In this document: in pieces, positions 16,945 through 34,612 of the stretch
How positions within the stretch are numbered: the stretch's first letter is position 1
Layout of the letters: each line of letters starts with the position of its first letter
IMG/VR virus record: IMGVR_UViG_3300045970_000259
Coordinates: 1 to 38,876 of that record
DNA: 38,876 bases
Reading direction: 5' to 3' (one strand)
Origin: a virus
Made by a program: the position numbers and the translations under genes
Notes under the pieces: model-generated
The model's database searches: none
Told to the model about the DNA's origin: nothing
What the model saw: the letters and a program-made list of their open reading frames with translations, nothing else

Positions 16945-18588
16945 TCAGATTTCCTTGGTGCGAGACGTTACGATTAGGCCATCTGCGTCGCGCTTCGTAA
17001 TCGTTGTTTCGGTGGCGCGCGCTTTGCGCGCCTTCGGTTCCGGCGGCGCGTCAATCTTGGCCGCGATATTGGCCTGCAGTGTGTATGTCGCAGGCTCTGC
17101 CGCCTGCACAGTGATGGCGCCTTGATTGATCACGATGTCCGGCTGCGAAACGTTGACGACAACCGGCGTTTCAGCAATCGCCGTCGCAAGCCGCGCCATG
17201 TCCGACGCCGTCGCCGGCTTGTCTTCCGGATCGGCGGGTTCAGCGGGCTCAACAGGATCGGCCGGTTCAGGCGCCGCAGGAGCGGCAGGCGCAGCCGGCG
17301 CGGTCTGCTGCTCGGCCAGTTCGTCAAGGTCTGGATCAGGCGGCAAGTTCTCCAGCCGCCGCACTTCCGACGGCCGCATCCATGCCGGCTCTCCCGCGCG
17401 CCCCAGCGCGATCCGGTAGGATTCGTTGCGCGACTTCATGTCGCCACGCTCCAGGCCGGCGGTGTTGAACTCACAAAAGCGCGCCGCGGTGCGGAAGATC
17501 TTGCGGTTGATCTCCTGCTCGAACTTCACCAAATGGCGCTGCAGCGTGTATTTGACGAAGGCGATGGACATCTGCTCGACGCCCGAGCCCCAACTCGTCG
17601 TTTTCTCGGTGTGGCCGACCATCCATGGCGGAACGCCGAAAATGCGGCAAATGTCCTCGACCTGAAACTTACGCGTTTCCAGCAACTGCGCGTCGTTGGC
17701 GGTCAGCGTGATCGGCTGTACCTTGAGCCCGCCGGTCAGGATCGCCGGCTTCCACGACTGCGCCGCGCCCTTGTACCGCTCCTCCCACTGCGACCGCAGC
17801 GAGTCCACCGTGCCGACCGACAGGTTGGCGGCGTCGGTCGTCAGCACGAAGTCCGGCCGCGCCGAGTTCTTGAAGAACGCGGCCATGTACTCATCCGCGC
17901 TCATGGCGACGCTGCCCGACGTCCGCAATGCGCTGGTGATCTGCGGCAAGCCGCGCAGGCCGTTAAAGCCGGGACCAGGGACATGGATCATGTCGTCTTG
18001 ATCCAGATCAACCGATGGCAGGCCGCCCTCGGTCTGCGACAACTGCGCCGACACCTTGTAGCGCAGCCGGTCATTGATCCGTCGCACCTGAACCGTGGCC
18101 GGGTGCAGCGGCTCGAAGCCGGCGATGACCGGCGAAGTCTTCGACCGGCGATGGATGCGCCAGAACGAATCACCCAGAAGCAGCAGCGACCCAGTCGAAT
18201 ACTCCCACGCCGCGGCTGCCGGCCAGCAGGAAAAGAATTCCTCGTTGAGCATCCACCATTCGTCTGGCGTGATGCGCTCGCGCGTGCCGTCCTGGCCGCG
18301 TCGGTACATCGTCAACGGAATCGACGCCAGCGCGCCGCCGATCAGCGAAATGCAGGCGTACACGGCCGAGATGTTCATCGCCGTGCGCTCGGTCACGACG
18401 CCAGAAGATGCAGTCTGCCCGCCCTTCACCCACTCGGCGAAATCGGAGAATGACAGGCCGGTCTGATCCAGCGCCTTCGGCGTCTGCTTGGCAGCCGCGC
18501 GCTCATAGTTCCACGCCGCCAGCACAACCGAGCCGGGAACCTTGGCGCGCTCCTGCGCCTGCGCGAACCGCTGGGCGTATTCACTCAT
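16945..18588 (-). CDS. Portal protein, HK97 type
   Basis: A 547-residue portal forming the dodecameric DNA gate. Recognisable parts: SAVYACISLIGGALASIPL at about 74-92, then WWMLNEEF, LLLLGDSFWRIHR, GLRGLPQITSALR, and the late VEDICRIFGVPPWMVGH with TTSWGSGVEQMSIAFVKYTL, all characteristic of PF04860. After about residue 430 a Pro/Ala/Glu-rich linker (APAAPAAPEPADPVEPAEPA) leads to a beta-containing tail, longer than the HK97 portal. The terminase start region overlaps at 18585 by ATGA. The protease gene is not immediately next to it because virion and HNH genes intervene. Confidence 0.95.
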   Translation of the reverse strand: MSEYAQRFAQAQERAKVPGSVVLAAWNYERAAAKQTPKALDQTGLSFSDFAEWVKGGQTASSGVVTERTAMNISAVYACISLIGGALASIPLTMYRRGQDGTRERITPDEWWMLNEEFFSCWPAAAAWEYSTGSLLLLGDSFWRIHRRSKTSPVIAGFEPLHPATVQVRRINDRLRYKVSAQLSQTEGGLPSVDLDQDDMIHVPGPGFNGLRGLPQITSALRTSGSVAMSADEYMAAFFKNSARPDFVLTTDAANLSVGTVDSLRSQWEERYKGAAQSWKPAILTGGLKVQPITLTANDAQLLETRKFQVEDICRIFGVPPWMVGHTEKTTSWGSGVEQMSIAFVKYTLQRHLVKFEQEINRKIFRTAARFCEFNTAGLERGDMKSRNESYRIALGRAGEPAWMRPSEVRRLENLPPDPDLDELAEQQTAPAAPAAPAAPEPADPVEPAEPADPEDKPATASDMARLATAIAETPVVVNVSQPDIVINQGAITVQAAEPATYTLQANIAAKIDAPPEPKARKARATETTITKRDADGLIVTSRTKEI

Positions 18589-20105
18589 AGCAGCACGATC
18601 CCCGGTTCCATTGCGACTGCGCTGGCAACCGATGTCGCCGCGCCCATTGCCATCGCCAACGCCACCATGCCGTCAATGCGGCCGGTCGCCTTCGTTTTGT
18701 CCAACTTCCGATTCCCCGCCGGATCGCGCGACGCAATCGCGTTCGACGCGCACCATGACAGCACCGGATGCCCGCCGTGCAGCACGCGGCCGGACGCCAA
18801 CTCCGCCTCGACCGTATCCAGCGCCGGACTCATATCCTTGAAGCCTTGGCCGAACGGATGCAGCGGCAGATCGAGGCTGCACCGCTCAAGCGCCTTCTTC
18901 ATCACGTCGATCCGCCAGCGGTCATACGCCACCATGCGCAAGTCGCAATCGCCCGCGATCTCGCCCAGGCGCTCGGCGATGAAGGCGTAATCCACGCTGG
19001 CCCCCGGCGTCGTTTCCAGGTGGCCTTGCTGCTGCCACAAGTCATACGGCGCCCGGTCCCGCCGTGCGCGGTCGATCAGCGCTTGCGCTGGCGCCCAGAA
19101 ATACGGCTTGACGTGCCAGTACCCGTCGGCATCTTTCGCCACCAACACCAGCGCCGTCAGATCCTGCCGCGCCGACAAGTCGAGGCCGGCAAACACAGGA
19201 TTCGACTCGAACGCTTCCGGCAGTGGGTCGCCGCCGTTCTGTTCCCAGATCGCGCGCGGAATGAACGGCGACACCTGACTGATTCGCTGGTTTAGGATCA
19301 AGTTCCTGAAGTTCGACTCCCGACTCGGCATCCGCCGCGCGCTCTCGGCCTGCTGCCTCACCTCGTCCGCGTTCAGGAAGTCCCCATACGCCGGATTCGC
19401 CGCTTTCCACGCCGGCTCTTCAAACGGGTTAAGATCCTCGGGCGCCGAGTACAGGTACAGTTTCGTCAACGGATCTGCGCCCGTCGCCGCGTCGTCGATC
19501 AGCACCGACAGCAAATCCGCATCGGTCGGCGCCTGCGTCGAGATCACCACCGACAACGGCGCCTCTTGTGCTCCGCTCGCCGTCTCCAACGCTTCGTACA
19601 GCTCGCTGCGCGCGCCGCGCACCTGGCCTAGTTCGTCATGCACCGTGAACACCGGAGACAAGCCATACGCTGTACTCGCGTCCGCAGACAGCGCCCGATA
19701 CAACGTGCCCAGTTCAGGACAGTGCAACTGCTTGGCGGTATCACGCACCACGACGAACGCGTTAAGGTCCGGCGAGAGACGCACCATCTTGGCCGCCAAC
19801 GCAAACAAAATTGAAGCTTGATCTCTGCTCTGCGCCGCACTGAACAGTTGCGAATTTTCACGCGCGCGTGGTCCGCATAGGTGCAGCAGAAGTAAGCAGG
19901 CCGCAAGCGCCGTCTTGCCGTTCTTGCGCCCAAAACTGACGATGGCCCGCCGCGTCGGCGTGTCGTAAATCCCTCGAATCACCTTGCGTTGCCACGGCCG
20001 CAACACAATCGGCCTCCCGACGTGCGCGCCCTCGGGAACCCGCAGGTGCTTCTCAATCCAGCGAATCGACTCCAGGCCGACCGACTTTACCCGGCGCTCT
20101 GCCAT
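18585..20105 (-). CDS. Terminase large subunit
   Basis: A 506-residue packaging motor of the Terminase_1 (HK97/phiE125) type. The ATPase has a Walker-A-like SFGRKNGKTA (about 58-67) and a Walker-B-like FTVHDELGQ with Asp-Glu. The nuclease domain has GLDLSARQDLTALVLV (RNase-H-like first Asp) and MVAYDRWRIDVMKKALE near the end. It cuts concatemeric DNA and pumps it through the portal. Its start lies inside the small subunit gene by 19 bases, and the portal overlaps its end by ATGA. Together with the HNH gene upstream this suggests cos-type packaging, as in HK97; no cos site was identified. Confidence 0.95.
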   Translation of the reverse strand: MAERRVKSVGLESIRWIEKHLRVPEGAHVGRPIVLRPWQRKVIRGIYDTPTRRAIVSFGRKNGKTALAACLLLLHLCGPRARENSQLFSAAQSRDQASILFALAAKMVRLSPDLNAFVVVRDTAKQLHCPELGTLYRALSADASTAYGLSPVFTVHDELGQVRGARSELYEALETASGAQEAPLSVVISTQAPTDADLLSVLIDDAATGADPLTKLYLYSAPEDLNPFEEPAWKAANPAYGDFLNADEVRQQAESARRMPSRESNFRNLILNQRISQVSPFIPRAIWEQNGGDPLPEAFESNPVFAGLDLSARQDLTALVLVAKDADGYWHVKPYFWAPAQALIDRARRDRAPYDLWQQQGHLETTPGASVDYAFIAERLGEIAGDCDLRMVAYDRWRIDVMKKALERCSLDLPLHPFGQGFKDMSPALDTVEAELASGRVLHGGHPVLSWCASNAIASRDPAGNRKLDKTKATGRIDGMVALAMAMGAATSVASAVAMEPGIVLL

Positions 20106-24672: not shown

Positions 24673-24891
24673 TCAGGCGGCGATACGGCGACGCTTCTCG
24701 ACCTCGATGCCGAGCAGCGCTGCGACGCTTAGACGCCCGTTTGATGCCTCGGCCAGTCGCTTCGCTAATCCGATGGAGGGGCGACGATGACCGTATGCGA
24801 TTTGCGTAAAGTAGTTAGGCGACGTGCCGATTCGATCACACAGATCGGGCACCTCGGCGCGGTGCTTGAGGAGGAAGGTCTTGGCATCCAT
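24673..24891 (-). CDS. Cro-like HTH regulator
   Basis: A 72-residue protein of the Cro/HTH_3 type. The helix-turn-helix runs VPDLCDRIGTSPNYFTQIAY and then GHRRPSIGLAKRLAEASNG. It is the first gene of the right early operon. I chose ATG 24891 (MDAKTFLLKH) because the -10 hexamer TAATAT (24904-24899) places the transcript start at about this A, leaving no leader. An upstream in-frame ATG at 24897 would lie inside the promoter. It should bind the TTAGC-N5-GCTAA operators and oppose the repressor read from the other strand. Confidence 0.82.
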   Translation of the reverse strand: MDAKTFLLKHRAEVPDLCDRIGTSPNYFTQIAYGHRRPSIGLAKRLAEASNGRLSVAALLGIEVEKRRRIAA

Positions 24892-24898
24892 GACCATA

Positions 24899-24940
24899 AT
24901 ATTAGCGTTTTGCTAAGCAATGTCAATAGCGCGGCGCGAA
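24899..24940 (-). promoter_or_regulatory. Right early promoter and operators (PR/OR)
   Basis: On the minus strand TTGACA (24926-24921), a 16-base spacer and TAATAT (24904-24899) form a strong promoter for the Cro-like gene. The spacer holds the palindrome TTAGC-N5-GCTAA (24902-24916). A second site with two mismatches (24926-24940) is centred 24 bp away. The same promoter and operator set is found at 25740-25781. A promoter for the repressor itself is not obvious. Confidence 0.85.
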
Positions 24941-24975
24941 TACACGGCATAGACTGGATGCTGTGCAATCCACAG

Positions 24976-25356
24976 ATGGACAACAAATCCATCCGAAGGA
25001 TTAACCTGATCGGCTTGATCGCCGAATTCGGCACCATTGAGGCCCTGGCCCGGGCAACCGGCGCCGTTGCCAACTATCTGAGCCAGATCAAAAGCGGGTC
25101 GCGCAATATGGGGGATGCTTTGGCTCGGCAGTTGGAGCAGCGAATGGCTAAAGAGATGGGATGGATGGACTCCCCGCACTTCGCTTCGCCCGAGGCCACG
25201 ATGTCCGCGACTGAAGCGCTGCAAATCCTTGACGCGCTGTCAGTTGATGACCGTGAGGCTTGGATGCGGCACGGCAGGCTGCTTGTTGAGGGTAACGCGG
25301 CGCGCGGCGTCAGCAATCCGTTTGGCAAGATTCCGCGAGGCGGAAAGGGAAAGTAA
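24976..25356 (+). CDS. CI-like phage repressor, HTH without peptidase domain
   Basis: A 126-residue regulator, divergent from the Cro-like gene. The start ATG 24976 (MDNKSIRRIN) is chosen because the upstream frame runs over the Cro-like gene and the operators; ATG 24958 is an alternative, and neither has a clear ribosome-binding site. The HTH is GTIEALARATGAVANYLSQI. The C-terminal part (TEALQILDALSVDDREAWMR) resembles small phage Cro/C1-type regulators. The LexA-like Ser-Lys peptidase of lambda CI is absent, so induction should not use RecA-aided self-cleavage. It probably binds the 15-bp palindromes at OR and OL to keep lysogeny. Confidence 0.78.
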   Translation: MDNKSIRRINLIGLIAEFGTIEALARATGAVANYLSQIKSGSRNMGDALARQLEQRMAKEMGWMDSPHFASPEATMSATEALQILDALSVDDREAWMRHGRLLVEGNAARGVSNPFGKIPRGGKGK

Positions 25357-25676
25357 TGGAGTTTTTCTTCTTCATGGCGGTCGCGGCGCTGATCGCCTTT
25401 CTCGCCCTCATGTTGCAGCGCAAGAAAGACGCCCGGGGCACAGCCACCCACATTTGCGCCGGCTGCGGGGCGCAAGGAATGCCGACGCAGAGAGATAAAG
25501 GAAGTGGATTCATCGAAATCATCCTTTGGCTCTGCTTCATCATCCCCGGCCTGATTTATTCGATCTGGCGCCGCTCGGGATTGGCGAACAGTTGCCAGAT
25601 ATGCAGATCAACCGACATCATCCCGATTGACTCGCCGCGCGGCCGCAAACTGGCCGGAGAGTTCGGCGCCAGATAG
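25356..25676 (+). CDS. Membrane protein with zinc-ribbon cysteines, next to repressor
   Basis: A 106-residue protein with an N-terminal membrane helix (MEFFFFMAVAALIAFLALML), a C-x2-C pair (CAGCG), a second hydrophobic stretch (FIEIILWLCFIIPGLIYSIW, similar in style to YqaE/LITAF-like hairpins) and a second C-x2-C (CQIC). The two cysteine pairs suggest one zinc ribbon held at the membrane. It overlaps the repressor stop (TAATG), so it should be made in lysogens. In lambda this place holds rex genes. Superinfection exclusion is a plausible inference but is unproven. A terminator follows. Confidence 0.7.
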   Translation: MEFFFFMAVAALIAFLALMLQRKKDARGTATHICAGCGAQGMPTQRDKGSGFIEIILWLCFIIPGLIYSIWRRSGLANSCQICRSTDIIPIDSPRGRKLAGEFGAR

Positions 25677-25704
25677 TCTAAGCCTTCCCACCTCGTCCGC
25701 CGAA

Positions 25705-25728
25705 GCCCGCCCAGTGCGGGCGTTTTTT
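25705..25728 (+). terminator. Intrinsic terminator of the repressor operon
   Basis: A perfect 6-bp GC stem (GCCCGC and GCGGGC, loop CCAGT) is followed by GTTTTTT. It ends the repressor and membrane-protein transcript just before the left operator region. Confidence 0.88.
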
Positions 25729-25739
25729 CGTCTTCGATA

Positions 25740-25781
25740 TTCGCATTTTGCTATTGACAAGTCTTAGCAGTCTGCTAATAT
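25740..25781 (+). promoter_or_regulatory. Left early promoter and operators (PL/OL)
   Basis: TTGACA (25754-25759), a 16-base spacer and TAATAT (25776-25781) repeat the right promoter exactly. The spacer holds TTAGCAG-T-CTGCTAA (25764-25778), a perfect 15-bp palindrome. A second site with two mismatches, TTCGC-N5-GCTAT (25740-25754), is centred 24 bp upstream, as at the right operator. It drives the plus-strand early operon starting at 25933 after a leader of about 145 bases, where no clear antitermination site was recognised. Confidence 0.86.
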
Positions 25782-25932: not shown

Positions 25933-26304
25933 ATGAAAGCAAACCGCAGCATCGCCGGCCTTACCGCGCTGGCGTTCGCAGTCAGCGTCACCGGCTGCGC
26001 CACCAAGGGCGCCGACATTGCAGCGTCCTACGTCCCCGCCAGCATCTACGAGGGCGCTTCGTGCAAGCAGCTCGCAGCCGACATCGTCGAAGTGCAAGGC
26101 AAGGTCATCGAGCTGACGGCCAAGCAGGATACCGCCGCCGGCAACGACACGGCGCTGGTCGTGGTGTCCGCGATCCTGTTCTGGCCGGCCATCTTCTTCG
26201 TCGGCGGCAAGGGCGCGCAGGAAGCCGAGTTGGCGAGGCTCAAAGGCAGCGCCGAAACGATGAACAAGACGTACAAGGCCAAGAACTGCGAGGTGGCGTC
26301 ATGA
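25933..26304 (+). CDS. Lipoprotein, first gene of left early operon
   Basis: A 123-residue protein with a bacterial lipoprotein signal: positively charged start (MKANRSIAG), hydrophobic core and lipobox VTGC (Cys20). After the signal come a Lys/Ala-rich helical part and a hydrophobic stretch (ALVVVSAILFWPAIFFVGG) that may cross a membrane or form a hairpin. The start has a strong GAGAGAGGAA site. As the first gene after OL/PL it should be made early in infection. Homologous-looking lipoproteins occur in bacterial genomes, so it could be a lysogenic-conversion or exclusion gene. The function is unknown. Confidence 0.75.
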   Translation: MKANRSIAGLTALAFAVSVTGCATKGADIAASYVPASIYEGASCKQLAADIVEVQGKVIELTAKQDTAAGNDTALVVVSAILFWPAIFFVGGKGAQEAELARLKGSAETMNKTYKAKNCEVAS

Positions 26305-33410: not shown

Positions 33411-33688
33411 TCCTCACCCTCGCCCAGGCTGCCGATAGCCTGTCCCTATCAACCAGCACCGTGCGCCGCCTCGTTGCTTATGGCGCCCTGCCGTGCGTAC
33501 AGTTATCGGTTCGGCGTGTTGGCATCCCTGCCAGCGCCATCGACGACTATATCCGGCAGCAATGGCGATCCGCACCTACACCGACGCCCAAGGTCGCGCC
33601 CGCTACGCTATCGAATTTCAGCAGGGCGGCAGACGCATTCACCGCCGCTGCCCGCCGGGGATCACCAGGGCGGCAGCGAAAGAGCTAG
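33407..33688 (+). CDS. Excisionase-like HTH protein
   Basis: A 93-residue protein starting at TTG 33407 with GAGGA six bases before it. LTLAQAADSLSLSTSTVRRL and VAYGALPCVQLSVRRVGIPA follow the winged-helix (HTH_17/MerR-like) excisionase pattern, with DDYIRQQW as the last helix of the domain. It directs the integrase to excision and sits upstream of it, as in many phages. The basic tail continues across 127 bases shared with the integrase gene. TTG is a weak start, so levels should be low. The longer frame from 33239 covers the previous gene. Confidence 0.72.
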   Translation: MILTLAQAADSLSLSTSTVRRLVAYGALPCVQLSVRRVGIPASAIDDYIRQQWRSAPTPTPKVAPATLSNFSRAADAFTAAARRGSPGRQRKS

Positions 33689-34542
33689 AGGTTCGGCTGC
33701 GGCGGGAAGCGTTCGCCGTGGATTCGTTGCAGCATCAACAGGAGGTGCCGCTCGCGGCGGCAATACAACTATGGCTCGAAAGCACGCTGCCCCACCGGAA
33801 GGACCAGACAGTCGTCAGCAAGGCGCACCAGTGGGCGACGTTCGTGGCTGGGAAAGCACTGGATACTGCCCCCGCTGTGGCGTCAACTGGTGGAATGACA
33901 TGGGTCAAGGCCGGCTTAAGTGTGGCAACTGTGAACAGGAGGTTGTGTGTTCTGAAGGCGGTCTGCAAATGGGCGTGGGAACAGAACCTGATAGCCGAGA
34001 ACCTGTCGCCCCGGATCAAACTGCTACCGGGGGAAGTGAAGCGCGAGGTATACCTGACGCGGGGCCAGATAGCGAAACTCGCGCGCTGCGCTCCATCGGC
34101 TACTTCGAAGTCTGCGATCTTGTTGACCGCGTACTCGGGCCTGCGCGCCTCGGAATTGTTGAGATTGTCCAGCACGCCCATCGGCGCGGATTCATTGCTG
34201 GTATCGAATACCAAGAGCGGCAAGCCGCGGCAGGTTCCCATCATCCCCAAGATTCGCGTGTACCTGAAACGCCTGCCCATCGGCCTGACCTACCGGCAAC
34301 TAATCGGTGAATTCTGGATCGCGCGCAAGGCCGCTGGGCTCGATCATGTGCGCTGGCACGACCTGCGGCACTCGGCAGCGTCCATGCTGGTGAACGCAGG
34401 CGTCGACCTGTATGTGATCGGCAAGATACTCGGCCACGCGTCCATGCAAACCACCAGCCGGTACGCCCATCTTGAGCAGGAAACGCTTAGGGCGGCGATG
34501 GGGAAATTAGGGAAGAATCCCACCAAGCGCCCACCAGATTAG
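33562..34542 (+). CDS. int: Tyrosine integrase
   Basis: A 326-residue site-specific recombinase from ATG 33562 (MAIRTYTDAQ); the longer frame to 33493 lies within the excisionase and is unlikely. Catalytic residues can all be seen: Arg195 (YSGLRASELL), Lys218 (NTKSGK), His266 and Arg269 (HDLRH), His292 (LGHAS) and Tyr301 (TTSRYAHL). The N-terminal arm-binding domain and core-binding helices (NRRLCVLKAVCKWAWE) are present. The stop is 21 bases before the tRNA-like attP sequence, as usual for integrases that use tRNA genes. It is convergent with the late lysis genes. Confidence 0.95.
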   Translation: MAIRTYTDAQGRARYAIEFQQGGRRIHRRCPPGITRAAAKELEVRLRREAFAVDSLQHQQEVPLAAAIQLWLESTLPHRKDQTVVSKAHQWATFVAGKALDTAPAVASTGGMTWVKAGLSVATVNRRLCVLKAVCKWAWEQNLIAENLSPRIKLLPGEVKREVYLTRGQIAKLARCAPSATSKSAILLTAYSGLRASELLRLSSTPIGADSLLVSNTKSGKPRQVPIIPKIRVYLKRLPIGLTYRQLIGEFWIARKAAGLDHVRWHDLRHSAASMLVNAGVDLYVIGKILGHASMQTTSRYAHLEQETLRAAMGKLGKNPTKRPPD

Positions 34543-34563
34543 GCGTTTTCCCTATGACGGACG

Positions 34564-34612
34564 CGGGACTCATAATCCCTTGGTCGTTGGTTCAAGTCCA
34601 ACCGGGCCCACC
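34564..34612 (+). other. attP core: 3' half of a CAT-anticodon tRNA
   Basis: This segment matches the 3' part of a tRNA: anticodon loop CTCATAA (34569-34575, anticodon CAT, so tRNA-Met or the k2C-type tRNA-Ile), a 5-base variable loop, T stem GTTGG/CCAAC with loop TTCAAGT, and acceptor CGGGCCC-A-CC ending at 34612. The 5' half (D arm and acceptor) is missing upstream. Integration here would rebuild the host tRNA. It lies just behind the integrase. Confidence 0.88.

Follow-up and report, generated by a model that had tools for sequence, protein, structure and literature searches.

Paired TTAGC-N5-GCTAA operators in the predicted lambda-type immunity region of a temperate phage

Two near-identical promoter modules flank a short gene for a predicted DNA-binding protein in IMG/VR record IMGVR_UViG_3300045970_000259, and the question arises whether they form the switch between lysis and lysogeny and which protein reads the palindromes that they contain. 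The whole record, 38,876 bp in length, was analyzed and is termed the window here. Our analysis indicates, with a probability of about 0.9, that the stretch represents a temperate-phage immunity region with the same wiring as that of lambda. The elements on which the argument depends are as follows.

24673-24891, minus strand: cro-like gene, 72 aa, helix-turn-helix (HTH); ATG at 24891, with the open reading frame extending to 24897
24926-24899, minus strand: PR, reading TTGACATTGCTTAGCAAAACGCTAATAT, TTGACA-N16-TAATAT; -35 box TTGACA at 24926-24921, 16-bp spacer, -10 box TAATAT at 24904-24899
24902-24916: OR1, exact TTAGC-N5-GCTAA, within the PR spacer
24926-24940: OR2, ATAGC-N5-GCGAA (two mismatches), overlapping the PR -35 box
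24950-24964: decayed OR3 position, TAGACTGGATGCTGT, 5/10 mismatches, centre 19 bp from the repressor ATG
24976-25356, plus strand: repressor of CI/Rep type, 126 aa; PHROG 12107/5736, profile and fold matches, homologues in operator-bearing loci
25356-25676, plus strand: open reading frame for a small membrane protein with CxxC pairs, its start overlapping the repressor stop
25705-25731, plus strand: hairpin resembling an intrinsic terminator, at the end of the repressor operon and ahead of OL
25740-25754: OL2, TTCGC-N5-GCTAT (two mismatches), its final T also beginning the PL -35 box
25754-25781, plus strand: PL, reading TTGACAAGTCTTAGCAGTCTGCTAATAT; TTGACA, 16 bp, TAATAT, with an extended TG
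25764-25778: OL1, exact TTAGC-N5-GCTAA, within the PL spacer

In lambda terms, 24899-24926 is PR/OR, on the Cro side, and 25754-25781 is PL/OL. An earlier note on this DNA had described twin promoters of the form TTGACA-16-TAATAT, an exact palindrome in each spacer and a two-mismatch copy 24 bp upstream; the promoters and palindromes proved exact to the base, and the copies were found at 24926-24940 and 25740-25754. At both ends, O1 and O2 are separated by 24 bp from centre to centre with O2 upstream, and the centres of OR1 and OR2 are located 67 and 43 bp from the repressor ATG. When read in promoter orientation, O2 is TTCGC-N5-GCTAT at OR and OL alike, carrying the identical two mismatches, and at both promoters its final T also begins the -35 box. 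The OR and OL modules are identical at 31 of 45 bp and lie 862 bp apart. It had also been suggested that the paired dimers occupy one face of the DNA, but this does not hold, as 24 bp corresponds to 2.3 helical turns and places them approximately 100 degrees off, as in lambda. DNA looping over the 862 bp is possible but unsupported. The predicted operators overlap PR and PL, OL is located beyond the repressor gene, and the repressor and cro genes are divergent with operator sites between them, all features of a lambda-type switch; the type with a TTAGC signature in its DNA is common to dozens of proteobacterial phages.

The arrangement lies far above chance. Across 400 dinucleotide-preserving shuffles, exact TTAGC-N5-GCTAA palindromes appeared at a mean of 0.01 and never twice, and no shuffle contained an exact site with a partner of at most two mismatches at 24 bp (0/400). 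A weight matrix whose training set comprised other phages only places the four sites at ranks 1, 2, 4, and 6 of approximately 38,860 positions. The two-mismatch pattern by itself (8 sites) is not above chance, while the arrangement is. A search of the 38,876-bp record for TTAGC-N5-GCTAA, which the earlier note had proposed, returned the two switch sites only. Were these ordinary strong promoters with incidental palindromes and no dedicated operator, some matching would be expected, since the -10 TAAT and the -35 T lie within the palindromes and force it. That reading is refuted because register and spacing are conserved in many phages; the shuffles and the scrambled motif described below, which retrieved no repressor homologues, also speak against it, leaving it virtually no chance. 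Similarly, service to a host regulator in place of the phage repressor, in favour of which nothing was found, is extremely improbable, given that the sites are confined to the switch in this record and track the type of phage repressor in hosts from Burkholderia to Klebsiella.

The link between operator and repressor was approached from the DNA side by scanning 2.9 million viral contigs with the motif only. Its N5 form, TTGACA-N5-TTAGC-N5-GCTAAT, retrieved 31 viral loci, 12 of which carry strong repressor-family matches (E 1e-23 to 1e-31), and several further loci carry different CI-type repressors. With the N4 motif, which has the window's own spacing, repressor relatives were present in 14 of 20 loci, and a longer motif in genome contigs gave 3 of 5 loci with relatives (Parvibium, Nitrosomonas, Ferrovum, Pseudothauera, Nevskia). 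The control motif, scrambled by reversing the halves at the same composition, produced 7 loci and no repressor relatives. The operator is thus specific enough to be searched for, as had been anticipated. It should be noted that motif-fetched loci contain the motif by construction, and the independent evidence consists of the repressor matches and the additional sites lying beyond the motif: the distal OL pair, OR2, and OR3. Other or unassigned repressors are encoded by about half of these loci, indicating that the operator is not exclusive to the Rep/PaaR2/KS9-gp41 family. When the window proteins were used to scan viral and genome contigs, few matches were obtained, and the repressor-family alignment offered no stretch conserved enough for scanning. 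In three loci (L016, L021, and L068), TTAGC palindromes were observed at an O1-O2 spacing of 32-34 bp; L016 and L021 carry different S24-type CI repressors.

The link was also approached from the protein side, with 17 phages retrieved only by the similarity of their repressor or Cro proteins. Their half-sites upstream of the repressor are as follows.

TTAGC type: S1, AUS531phi, PotUPM1, Chronis, KO-TP1, KS9, BgManors32, CF63a, IFTN9, Ostro, AV001
Other half-sites: mEp506, TTATC; an Acinetobacter phage, TTAGT; BUCT554, TTACC
Other or none: JBD68 and LESphi3, ACC/GGT-type repeats; L003, no such sites

Absence of the palindromes from relatives that keep the repressor had been named as the outcome that would speak against the switch; instead, TTAGC-type sites are present in 11 of the 17. 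The residue aligned with Q37 of the window repressor, located in the recognition helix, is Q or N in the 11 TTAGC phages, mEp506 and the Acinetobacter phage, and R in BUCT554, JBD68, LESphi3, and L003. TTAGC therefore accompanies 11 of 13 Q/N repressors and 0 of 4 R repressors (Fisher p 0.006, with kinship ignored and the groups set after the data had been seen). This tracking of the half-site by residue 37 suggests that TTAGC is read by the repressor; Cro helices follow the half-site in part. Together with the motif-repressor link and the integrase described below, these phages support the claim that the region is the core lysis-lysogeny regulator. A broader proposal is put forward tentatively, as a possibility rather than a likelihood. 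The TTAGC half-site would have been kept across phages of many hosts despite differing repressor C-termini (S24 or short and non-cleavable) and Cro types, and distant phages could consequently be mutually immune; changes of half-site would follow the replacement of Q/N by R at a single position of the recognition helix, and the window would run a 2+2 circuit without OR3.

The gene between the promoters had been called the repressor, and the product of 24976-25356 matches PHROG repressors as well as the Rep/PaaR2 profile and fold. The protein consists of an HTH domain and a short helical tail; its DNA-binding domain is modeled at pLDDT >90 and its C-terminal tail with low confidence. The top PDB match is the SPC32H Rep (5d50; profile E 7e-13, Foldseek E 7e-4), with PaaR2 (7nkv) also among the profile and fold matches. 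The N-terminal domain fits the family profile (IRR..NL, HTH, GWMD), which was seeded with the window repressor, and the independent part of the assignment is therefore the PHROG and PDB matches. Furthermore, the operator of the Q/N-type members is present upstream of the window repressor, in keeping with membership of the Rep/PaaR2/KS9-gp41 family. A domain search detected no S24 peptidase domain in the 126-aa repressor, which separates it from RecA-cleavable CI proteins; the domain is present in related repressors (L005, L027, L037), and other family members are without it. RecA-driven cleavage is therefore unlikely, and induction probably proceeds via an antirepressor or repressor turnover. 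No antirepressor gene, including Ant, was identified in the window phage. A LexA box as the route of induction was rejected, there being no exact site and one-mismatch sites at chance frequency.

The leftward gene encodes a Cro-like protein with weak HTH_3 and PHROG 35 matches. Its AF2 model (pLDDT 88) finds its best fold match in YdaS of CP-933P; the profile match is to YdaS chain 8co2 (E 1.3e-10), and the structural match is modest (Foldseek E 0.005, TM 0.72-0.74), which together place the protein in the YdaS type. The cro ATG lies 7 nt past the PR -10 box, implying that the message is probably leaderless, as it seemingly is in relatives too. The recognition helices, NYFTQI in the Cro-like protein and NYLSQI in the repressor, have a common xxYxxQ motif. 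As both are short HTH proteins with this motif, sequence alone separates them incompletely, and the roles might be swapped, with the leftward 72-aa protein as lysogenic repressor and the rightward 126-aa protein as its lytic, Cro-like antagonist. We regard this as very unlikely: the 126-aa protein groups with KS9 gp41, SPC32H Rep, and mEp506 CI and has homologues that carry S24 domains, and the 72-aa protein groups with YdaS/Cro and heads the replication arm.

With the 126-aa protein retained as repressor, the symmetry stressed by the earlier note can be considered. Measured from the repressor start, the centres of OR1, OR2, and OR3 in relatives (L053, L055, L058, and others) lie at 67, 43, and 19 bp or at slight variants of these positions, and the 67/43 register of the window is identical to that in L053, L055, L058, and others. 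L053, L058, L040, and L011 have the same non-consensus OR2 halves (ATAGC..GCGAA), which are therefore conserved and not damage. The three OR sites typical, though not universal, of a lambda-type switch are not found in the window; OR3 is present in most relatives, and one other locus (L065) is without a recognisable OR3. The twin modules consequently stand as described, but their symmetry is secondary: with three OR sites in relatives and the third decayed here, the 2+2 arrangement is most plausibly what remains of a three-plus-two layout. The loss of OR3 has probably weakened or abolished the ability of Cro, or of repressor in excess, to shut off PRM separately.

The analysis shows the architecture of the sites and its conservation, the tie of operator to repressor family, the missing S24 domain, the loss of OR3, and the integrase; binding by both proteins, activity of the promoters, a PRM, a leaderless cro message, and cooperativity are inferred. 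In the proposed mechanism, dimers of the 126-aa repressor would occupy OR1/OR2 and OL1/OL2, and, with O1 between the -10 and -35 boxes and O2 over the edge of the -35 box, RNA polymerase would be excluded from PR and PL. The repressor and the small membrane protein would be transcribed rightward, beginning at a PRM located between OR2 and the repressor start and stopping at the terminator at 25705. PR would transcribe leftward through leaderless cro and then the primase-polymerase arm, and PL rightward through the recombination arm. During lytic growth the Cro-like protein would compete for the same operators. Induction would probably depend on an antirepressor, the route reported in Gifsy, SPC32H, and Qin. 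Cro may instead bind a different sequence, for instance one near the decayed OR3, leaving the repressor alone to read TTAGC-N5-GCTAA. PY54 Cro is known to bind only OR3 (PMC4488713), and the window OR3 is no longer operator-like. This is nevertheless unlikely, as the Cro helix carries the xxYxxQ of the repressor, kept in most TTAGC phages with this Cro type but not in most of the R type, and the footprints of PaaR2 and YdaS overlap in CP-933P (PMC8630535). Competition of both proteins for the same sites remains the preferred reading.

The genes around the switch were also characterized, and two further features are required.

25933-26304, plus strand: first gene of the PL transcript, 123 aa, lipoprotein-like, with weak spanin/PHROG matches
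33493-34542, plus strand: tyrosine integrase, Pfam Phage_integrase 2.5e-21

The presence of the tyrosine integrase marks the phage as temperate. After it, at 34559-34612, there is a segment similar to a tRNA 3' half, the anticodon being CAT; judged by this resemblance it is a probable attP in a host tRNA gene, and no complete tRNA was found at the integration site. The PL arm carries AAA_24 and DUF669 genes, and a primase-polymerase gene lies beyond cro on the minus strand. The small membrane protein is probably the product of a co-transcribed accessory gene; a homologue adjoins the repressor in L031 (5975-6265), and its position suggests an exclusion or accessory role expressed in lysogeny. 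The weak matches of the 25933-26304 product are to the Rz-like spanin family, an odd location for a lysis gene. The large terminase (18588-20105) is 57% identical to that of Pseudomonas phage PAJU2, and the DNA of the immunity region had no similarity match among phage records. A 5' hairpin in the PL leader hiding the ribosome site was considered and rejected, there being no consistent excess over shuffles, in a comparison where the assumed transcript start may clip hairpins; the window leader folds worse than its shuffles. The PL leaders of L007, L028, L070, and L010 have strong hairpins with a 3' arm that holds or abuts the ribosome-binding site, absent in the window.

A repressor family that is widespread yet has received little study gains a well-supported operator sequence. 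From DNA alone, this sequence can serve to locate immunity regions, to tell repressor from Cro, and to predict which prophages might have immunity in common. Mechanistically, the switch is of the familiar lambda type. In lambda, repressor and cro are likewise divergent, O1 falls within the spacer of the promoter, O2 lies at the -35 box at a spacing of approximately 24 bp, and OL is beyond the repressor gene; the window differs in a repressor without an S24 domain, another operator sequence, two OR sites only, and its OL-OR distance of 862 bp. Repressor and Cro have structurally solved relatives in PaaR2 and YdaS of the cryptic prophage CP-933P in E. coli O157:H7 (7nkv for the repressor; 8co2 and 8c7k for Cro). 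There, too, the genes are divergent, the PaaR2 and YdaS footprints overlap, and the PL -35 and -10 boxes are the same as those of PR (PMC8630535). The leaderless transcript in CP-933P is that of the repressor gene (PMC8630535), whereas in the window it is predicted for cro; moreover, the CP-933P sites are reported to be 18-bp repeats with the half-site GTTTAGTAA, numbering three to four in each region, against 15-bp TTAGC-N5-GCTAA sites at two per side, and a toxin-antitoxin pair follows the repressor there, unlike in the window. The SPC32H Rep (5d50), from a Salmonella phage, is a 199-residue chain with a separate tetramerisation domain where the window repressor has a short helical tail, carries R in place of Q37, and is removed from DNA by the antirepressor Ant.

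Burkholderia phage KS9 gp41 (133 aa) belongs to the same family and is 31% identical to the window repressor over 85 residues. In KS9, unlike in the window, OR3 has been kept; the OR operators are of the TTAGC type, and a TTCGC..GCTAA site is located on the OL side. Its gp41 is a genetically identified repressor, inactivation of which is reported to have yielded an obligately lytic phage (PMC8310193, citing the original study). Gifsy GfoR/GtgR and Qin DicA are repressors of approximately 135 aa without a cleavage motif that are inactivated by antirepressors (PMC3121763, PMC10448788); the window repressor resembles GfoR/GtgR in its short length and in the missing motif. A profile search detected no homology of RacR or DicA to the window repressor. 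A paper stating the TTAGC-N5-GCTAA operator was not found in the open literature; subscription journals were mostly outside this coverage, and the operator may therefore be published. The RacR/YdaS region of Rac in E. coli K-12 (the racR-ydaS intergenic locus L073, TTAGGCACAGCCTATTGACAATTGCGTTAGGCGTCGCCTAATAT) has a window-like promoter-operator layout, TTAGG-N5-CCTATTGACA-N6-TTAGG-N5-CCTAATAT, with the same O2/-35/O1/-10 order and the half-site TTAGG. The layout is already known from CP-933P and Rac, and the window adds a minor twist, the loss of OR3, together with a useful family-wide operator.
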